This document shows positions 45,112 through 48,100 of a stretch of DNA of 64,000 bases, piece by piece (position 1 is the first letter of the stretch; the number at the start of each line of letters is the position of its first letter). This stretch comes from Neelides folsomi (taxonomy: Eukaryota > Arthropoda > Collembola > Neelipleona > Neelidae): NCBI GenBank assembly GCA_034687125.1, contig JAQGBZ010000092.1:1-64000 (forward strand), written 5' to 3'. The translations under genes were made by a program, and so were the position numbers. The notes beneath the pieces were generated by a model, which ran no database searches, was not told where the DNA came from, and was given only the letters and a program-made list of their open reading frames with translations.

Positions 45112-48100
45112 CTAGAGCTTAATTGGAATTTCATAAAAGGAATTTGATTGAACAACAGGATGAGAAATTTCTTCTTTTCTCGCCAATTGATTAACATAAG
45201 TACGAGGATAAAATTGTGTTGGTTCGTAACAAACTGGCCCCATTTCCAAATCTTCCCTTTGTGAATCCTCGTAGGAAAAATTTGTTTGATGAAAATCTGG
45301 AAAATGAAAATTTAATTAATAAATATGATATGGAGTTTCTTGGAATACAAAGGCATTTTCTTATAATATATAAATTCGTACATTTATATATTATGTATAC
45401 TTGTATTAATGTATGGTACACCTATATACCTTAGTATATACATAGTGTAAGAATACTGATATAAATATATAATTATTTTGTATTTATTTCGATAAGCTTC
45501 GCTTACTGCTATTTCTATTAAGAAGAGCTTCTCTTTCCAAGTCAACGCAATTATAGCCAGGGTTTGATACAACAGTTGAGTCAAATGACAAATAGTCCAC
45601 GTTTTGTTCCATCAACTTCGACAAAGAAAAAACTAACTGTTTGAAAGTTGGTCGATATTCAGGATTATATTCCCAACAGTGTCGCATGATATTGTACCTA
45701 TGAAAAGGAATTAAATATTAATGATAAAGGTAAATATGAACTTAAAAGTGTAAACTGGGAAGTTACAAGTCAATGGAGCAGTTTTTGGGTAACGGCATTC
45801 GATAACCCTCGCGTATGAGACTGAAAAGATTCTCATTGGTAACACCTGGGTAAGGTGAGACTCCCAAATTCACAATTTCCCAAAGAGTTATCCCAAATGA
45901 CCAAACATCCGATTTCATTGTGTAAAGCTCATCCGCTAAACATTCTGGAGCCAGCCATTTAACTGGAACTATATTTAAATAATTAAAATTAATTTTAAAT
46001 TTCCCCCATATACATATTTACATATATTGTATAATATATTTATGAATTATTTAACAAATTCGAATTCTGACCTTTGTCCTTGCTCTTTTTTTGATAAGTA
46101 TCATCAATGTAAATATCTCGTGTCAGACCAAAGTCGGATATTTTACAAACTCTGTCTTTTGTTAACAAAACGTTGCGGGCAGCCAAGTCACGATGAACCA
46201 TCTAAAATTTCATTCAAAATTAATTGAAAATGATTAAAATGGAAAGATGAAAGGTGTCTATTAAGGTTAAAATTTAAATTGTTAATAATGTTCTCGTACT
46301 CATGTGATGTTTTAGCCAATTACAAATTACCTTTGTAATTAATACCAAACCTTAGTTATATATTTATCTAATAAACAGAATTAAAATGAATAAAATGTTT
46401 ACTTTGATCTCTGACAGGTAGTTCATTCCTTTAGCAATTTGCCATGAAAATCCGAGAATGTCGGCCGGAGTTACGAGATAATTTTCAGTGGAGTCAAATG
46501 CAGGGTCAATTTTCCCACATCCAGAAGAGTCGACAGGCAAACGACGGCTTTTTCTCAGAAATCCCCTTCAAACAATTCCAATCATTTTTAACAATGTAGT
46601 TGTCATTCATATTTATAAAGAAATACAGTTTATTAATTAGCAATTATTATTTCATTTATTAATTCATTGCCACTTTTGTTTCACCTTAAAGATCCATGTT
46701 CCGCATATTCTAAAACTAGGTACCAAGGTCCGCCAGTTTGAGTACAAGCACCGAGGAGTTTGATAACATTCGGATTATCAACTTGTTTCAGCAAGGAATA
46801 TTCAGCAATGAATTCCGAATAGGAAGATTTCCCATTTTCAGAATTATTCTCTTTAAGCGCCTTTAAAGCCACTTCAATTCTCTCGCCTGAAATGATATTC
46901 ATTCCTTCCATTTAACAATTTGGACAATTTCAAAGGAATTTCCACAATGCAATCAACGTTCTAATAAAAATTATAACTCTTCAACACATCAAAGATTTAT
47001 GGAATTGAACAGTTCCCCACTAACTGAGATTAAGCGAAAAAATAAAAGTAAAATACAATGTAATAAATAAATGTAGCTAAATTATATACTTATGTTATAT
47101 ACATACCTGGATGGCCCATGACGTCACTCGCCAAAGCCTTATGAACTCTGCCAAATTCCCCTTCACCCAAAATGTCCCGAAGTTGCAATGAGGCCCGTGG
47201 GATTTCCCAGGCAGGATCAATCTAATTGTACAGACACTTTTAAATAAATGTCCAACCAAGGAACCAAATTCTACATAAATTCATTAAGCCTTAAATTATA
47301 TTTCTCCATTACACAGTGGGACGAGGGAGGAGCTCCTGGGTGGTCTTTGAGGAGGAGCATAAATATATAGAGTTCTAGCAGTGTACTTGAGAAATATATC
47401 GATAATTATTTTATTTCCTAAATTATTATTAAAGAGTATTTAATGGCTGTGATATTAGCAGTATTAAAGTCAAGAGAGTCTGAATTAAGTTGTGGGTGTT
47501 GGGAGTGTTCATTGAACATAGTCCACACAACTTAATTGGTGCTGGGACTTTTGACTTTAATATTGCCGTGGAAGGCCAACCACGTTAAAAAACGAAACTG
47601 TCAACGCGCGGAGCTCTGCGTATTTTTGTATTTAAGATCATAGAGGATAGTATGATGTAATATTCCATACATACCTAGTCGATCATAAACAAAAATAAAG
47701 TGAGCTCAAAAATTAAATATGAAAATGTCCCATAATGAAGATGCCGGGGTTAGGTTTTTTAACCGTTTAAAATACACGTAGCTAAGCTCCTCCATCGTCC
47801 CACTGTGCATTAGTCTTACAATGAATTCATGAATGAGTTCATGGGAATGAGACATTATTTATTGAATTAGCTCAACAGGGAAGAAATTACCATTTTTAAA
47901 GCATTGATCATATGTGGGTCGTTTTTCCCTGTTGTTCTGACAAATGGCGGGTCGGTGGGAGTTGAATCTCTCCGAATTGAACCCAAAGGGATGTCGTCGG
48001 GGAGTTTGGCCCCTTTGGTCTTTCTCCTAATATTAATCATTCTCTTATTAGATAATTGTGTGTAGCTATTGAAATAATGATGATGATTTGGCAGTTGAGC

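Follow-up and report, generated by a model that had tools for sequence, protein, structure and literature searches.

A short CACAGTG-ended element in a RET intron of Neelides folsomi and its Transib relatives

The heptamer consensus of the recombination signal sequences (RSS) used in V(D)J recombination is CACAGTG. Among transposons, the standard non-autonomous form is a short derivative that arose by internal deletion and retains its two ends, and the N in Transib names such as N1-N3 stands for non-autonomous. CAC-type ends together with 5-bp target-site duplications are treated as typical of Transib elements or their RAG-like kin in the available parts of several reports (PMC7204232, PMC8355894, PMC12730594, PMC6941560, PMC1852546). 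HzTransib is described, in the accessible text, as an element of 3518 bp with a deduced protein of 489 aa and a GCTCG duplication (PMC1852546), and its catalytic residues are given as D126, D225, and E436 (PMC6941560, available section). It was also reported that the Transib C(2)C motif falls between the second D and the E (PMC12730594, in part), and short Transibs N1-N3 of the malaria mosquito are named in a figure legend (PMC8355894).

The DNA analysed here, referred to as the window, is a stretch of 64,000 nucleotides (64 kb) of the collembolan Neelides folsomi (contig JAQGBZ010000092.1, positions 1 to 64,000). It contains, lodged in an intron of RET, a 496-bp element whose identity as a Transib derivative, brought in by Transib transposition, is very probable. 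The element has been shortened by internal deletion, is non-autonomous, and exists as a single copy. It is not a MITE family, which would comprise many near-identical short copies, because only one copy of the exact derivative was found in the genome search.

The element and its host intron

The coordinates of the features are listed in Table 1. Both ends of the element begin with CACAGTG, and the 5′ terminal repeat, CACAGTGGGACGAGGGAGGAGCT, is identical to the inverted copy at the 3′ end at 22 of 23 positions, which agrees with the single mismatch given in the original prediction. An exact CATTA, likewise predicted, stands on either side, and when duplication lengths of 1-12 bp were tested, an exact match was obtained at 5 bp only. 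In the window as a whole, 42 inverted pairs (23 bp, at most one mismatch, within 2 kb) were counted, with overlapping registers counted separately, and a single one of them, the pair of the RET element, has an exact 5-bp repeat on its two sides. No such inverted pair occurred in 30 simulated windows generated by a first-order Markov chain, and a chance 5-bp match at 496-bp spacing arose in 441 of 200,000 random trials.

The host intron is 669 bp long with GT-AG borders, and RET lies on the strand opposite to the former transposase sense strand of the element. Subtracting the element and one of the two CATTA repeats leaves an intron of 168 bp, which accords with the proposed expansion from about 170 bp. 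When the last part of the upstream exon is attached to the neighbouring exon, RET kinase structures come out as the top match (E 4.4e-7). With regard to its content, the element keeps the 5′ end, the leader, and the ATG with about eight codons of a transposase gene, followed directly by the 3′-terminal 50-60 bp.

Table 1. Features of the RET-intron element, in window positions
Feature	Position	Strand	Basis
RET intron hosting the element	47222-47890	-	GT-AG borders, kinase exon match
Left target-site duplication CATTA, 5 bp	47307-47311		exact repeat
Complete element, 496 bp	47312-47807	+	ends and duplication
5′ terminal inverted repeat, starts CACAGTG	47312-47334	+	sequence comparison of ends
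Subterminal motif TAAATATATAGAGTTCTAGCA	47360-47380	+	alignment of 5′ ends
Leader hairpin, apex 47496-47526	47458-47566	+	folding
5′ leader with the initial codons, 90% identity with C258	47504-47746	+	alignment
Retained ATG with about eight codons of the transposase, MSHNEDAG	47725-47748	+	by eye from DNA
Internal-deletion junction zone, 5′-derived part / 3′ end	47747-47755		alignment
3′ terminal inverted repeat	47785-47807	-	sequence comparison of ends
Right target-site duplication CATTA, 5 bp	47808-47812		exact repeat

Related copies, origin of the short form, and the leader hairpin

The genome (75.1 Mb, 840 contigs) was searched with the RET element, its ends, transposase pieces, and a second derivative (C304), and the resulting counts are lower bounds. 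At least ten Transib loci were found, namely C92 (the RET element), C258, C710, C330, C297, C304, C65, C2, C131, and C415, while C497, C100, and C776 match only the 3′ subterminal stretch of the second-derivative query and are kept outside the ten. The stretch shared with C258 and a slightly longer one shared with C710 (47498-47753, 84% identity) consist of the leader and first codons of a broken transposase gene; read by eye from the DNA, these codons give MSNIENAG in C710 against MSHNEDAG in the RET copy. Judged by the leader, C258 is the nearest relative, but its 5′ end is missing, and the RET element therefore cannot be compared end to end with a transposase-bearing close copy. At up to three mismatches, the 23-bp end occurs in the genome at both ends of the RET element and at one end of the C304 derivative, and nowhere else. 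C304 is a second, different short derivative of 484 bp (C304:68784-69267), also single, and the C131 copy measures 2976 bp (L035 3161-6136). Common terminal and subterminal sequence is present in six aligned 5′ ends and six aligned 3′ ends, C131 being the most divergent. A motif resembling TAAATATATAGAGTTCTAGCA recurs in the 5′ ends of C304, C65, C297, C330, and C131; it is TATA-like and is perhaps part of the transposase promoter.

An exact 5-bp duplication flanks three of the four copies in which both ends were recognised (CATTA in RET, TAATC in C304, and ATATT in C131), and 5 bp is the only length that matches in each, so that the duplication length proposed for this family held in these three copies. 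The C304 duplication rests on a 5′ end placed 22 bp further out than in the end alignment. The ends of C297 are decayed, and in the range tested it shows no duplication reaching 4 bp. Each of the three duplicated sequences is AT-rich, but three sites are too few to establish a target preference in a genome that is itself AT-rich. The heptamer-like ends typical of Transib start with CAC in RET (CACAGTG, both ends), C304 (CACACTG, both ends), C2 (CACACTG, 3′), C131 (CACCATG, 3′), and C297 (CACTTTG, 3′). Departures from CAC are found at some copies (CATCATG at C131 5′, CAAACTG at C258 3′, and GACACTG at C65 5′); in C297 and C330 the 5′ end is worn.

Several copies show further peculiarities. At the 5′ end of C304 (L037 5235-5268), an extra inverted partial copy of the terminus lies beyond the normal end, inside the 5-bp duplication. 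In C710, the Transib hairpin is split at its apex by a 2.2-kb insert (L016 4603-6840), whose inverted ends measure about 190 bp and are 76% alike; the insert matches FLYWCH weakly, below the cut-off. C258 is broken at nearly the same hairpin point. The C710 contig also carries an additional frame (L015 4812-5489) that presumably resembles retroelement reverse transcriptase and RNase H. An old Transib copy in C297 holds a nested element (L018 about 3240-4470) with weak helix-turn-helix matches only in Pfam, which we take, by motif, to be mariner/Tc1-like. In addition, Transib copies and C497, C100, and C776 have in common a conserved stretch near the 3′ end (L037 4855-4960, L013 6120-6200, L018 3076-3162), which contains a short AT hairpin and has been lost from the RET copy.

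The following course of events may be proposed for the RET element. Briefly, a full-length ancestor of about 3 kb with one transposase gene would have lost nearly all of its coding sequence and kept both ends. A Transib transposase would have bound the CACAGTG ends and excised the element, whose insertion into the RET intron by a 5-bp staggered cut would have produced the CATTA duplication, and the source lineage is now apparently dead. The act of transposition itself is something we infer, and it is reasonably probable that the deletion came first and the short form was then mobilised in trans. On the other hand, a full-length transposon might have been inserted and then deleted in place, with no trans-mobilised short form. 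The finding of one copy of the exact derivative is compatible with this, and a single copy cannot order deletion and insertion. Short forms do recur, however, as is seen from C304, another single copy, of 484 bp and with a 5-bp duplication of its own. Deletion in place appears rather unlikely, and deletion followed by mobilisation is the preferred course.

The internal hairpin that had been noticed in the element lies in the leader and folds at -48.5 kcal/mol (z -7.4). It is found in five Transib loci, whole in C92 and C330 and broken or partly deleted in C258, C710, and C297. A pattern of its apex, allowing up to three mismatches, has seven matches in the genome (two in C406 and one each in RET, C725, C250, C339, and C542) and none in the reversed control; this pattern misses the other four Transib loci. 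The sites include C725:15682-15712, C542:18872-18902, and C339:55654-55684, with hairpin regions at L017 770-1005 and L020 4955-5075. In C406, Pfam identifies an IS1595-like transposase (E 1e-13). The hairpin of this IS1595-like transposon consists of two tandem copies, and some hairpin copies elsewhere are partial. Between RET and C406, the core is conserved, and the outer stems differ yet remain self-complementary. It could be that the apex is a small independent module that entered two or more unrelated DNA transposons (a Transib and an IS1595-like one), centred in AT-rich palindromes. This is doubtful, because C725, C542, and C250 do not form the full hairpin, C339 forms the inner stem only, and covariation is weak (2 of 30 pairs changed on both sides among five sequences, with an unfavourable term of +2.23). 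Rfam yielded two matches to the hairpin at E 0.77, far under the gathering scores. The occurrence of the hairpin in both Transib and unrelated sequences of this genome is an oddity. A large leader hairpin (39-nt arms, 92%) is also present in C131 (L035 3249-3341), a second Transib lineage, close behind the conserved subterminal motif; the RET element has no strong blastn match there.

Transposase homology and identity of the element

Although the RET element itself is non-coding, pieces of a transposase of the RAG1-core/DDE type, as is expected for Transib, are found in relatives that share its leader or ends. The transposase pieces match PDB 6pqn in C710 (E 1.3e-13), C258 (3.5e-14), C2 (2.5e-18), and C131 (1e-14 and 3.8e-12). 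The structure database title of 6pqn is DNA-mediated transposase, and we take it, together with 6pqr, 6pqu, 6pqx, 6pqy, and 6pr5, to be HzTransib of Helicoverpa zea. The aligned D, D, and E stand at chain positions 109, 208, and 419, with spacings equal to those of D126, D225, and E436, which fits this assignment and suggests a 17-residue offset between the two numberings. In the alignments, C258 shows the first D, C710 the second D, and C131 the catalytic E. By eye, the first D was also recognised in C710 and C131, and C131 has the second D in another frame. No copy among those examined has all three in one open frame. A CPIC motif corresponding to the Transib C(2)C motif occurs in C710 and C131 in the region aligned to HzTransib.

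The longest stop-free Transib frames listed are those of C258 (210 aa), C297 (217 aa), and C131 (185 aa), compared with a deduced 489 aa in HzTransib (PMC1852546). Frames of 234 and 306 aa in C131 adjoin matches with internal TGA stops, and the piece in C415, a locus compared by blastn, has a 103-aa frame. No intact transposase frame was found among the copies examined (C258, C710, C297, C131, and C2), and within the loci found the Transib lineage looks extinct in this genome. The original prediction of a non-autonomous Transib-like family that is or was active thus stands as to the Transib-like identity and must be given up as to near-identical short copies, the derivative being single; present activity has no support, no intact transposase frame having been seen in the copies examined.

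The Transib identity of the RET element is based on its ends and duplication, on an interior equal to the leader and ATG of the transposase genes, on the HzTransib-like pieces of its relatives, on the terminal and subterminal sequence in common with them, on the CPIC motif, and on the 5-bp duplications at other copies. Counted against it are the lack of a copy with the complete triad in one frame, the missing 5′ end of C258, the lack of a duplication at C297, the ends that depart from CAC, and the late recognition of the C304 duplication. A derivative of a hAT, Chapaev, or CACTA (CMC) element with ends resembling CACAGTG has to be weighed against it, since CMC and Transib elements mostly share CA..TG ends and duplications of 2-5 bp, and hAT5 families with 5-bp duplications exist, according to the available part of one report (PMC12730594). 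However, the related loci encode Transib transposase pieces (E 3.8e-12 to 2.5e-18), none of nine Transib pieces scanned reaches E 0.01 with any family in Pfam (HTH_Tnp_Tc3_1, the strongest of the transposase-related matches at E 0.074, lies under the cut-off), and the 5-bp duplication is present in three copies. Such an origin is extremely unlikely, and hAT and CMC were rejected. Descent from a RAG-like transposon (ProtoRAG, RAGL) with genes for both RAG1L and RAG2L, which would show similar ends and duplications, is just as improbable, because the one match to 6b40, presumably the RAG1L of amphioxus, is weak (E 0.35), and HzTransib beats it by 13 orders of magnitude on the same piece. The RAG1 and RAG2 Pfam models (PF03089 for the RAG2-like gene, which is convergent in RAGL transposons) gave no match in the genome, and the control genomes were equally silent.

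Comparison with known systems

As a Transib derivative, the RET element adds a member to this group and no new kind. The finding shows that Transib, to which RAG1 is traced, once had a lineage in a compact animal genome of 75 Mb, where its derivatives retained CAC-type ends and 5-bp duplications. The AT-rich sites CATTA, TAATC, and ATATT are a minor observation on how Transib elements select their targets; nothing new is added on V(D)J recombination itself. The heptamer of the element is identical to the RSS consensus, but the element is not located in an antigen-receptor gene. The 12/23 structure of an RSS was sought and rejected, as no nonamer is present (best 3/9 at spacings 11-13 and 22-24).

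The short mosquito Transibs N1-N3 are presumably, by their names in the figure legend (PMC8355894), Transib derivatives with conserved ends; the RET element has no near-identical sibling copies in this genome. With HzTransib it shares the 5-bp duplication and, through its source copies, a homologous transposase, whereas HzTransib is 3518 bp long and coding with a GC-rich GCTCG, and the RET element is 496 bp long and non-coding with an AT-rich CATTA, a difference in duplications that was counted against the Transib reading. Finally, RAGL/ProtoRAG transposons are similar in their CAC-starting ends and 5-bp duplications in the available text (PMC7204232), but the transposase pieces in Neelides folsomi are of the Transib type by sequence.
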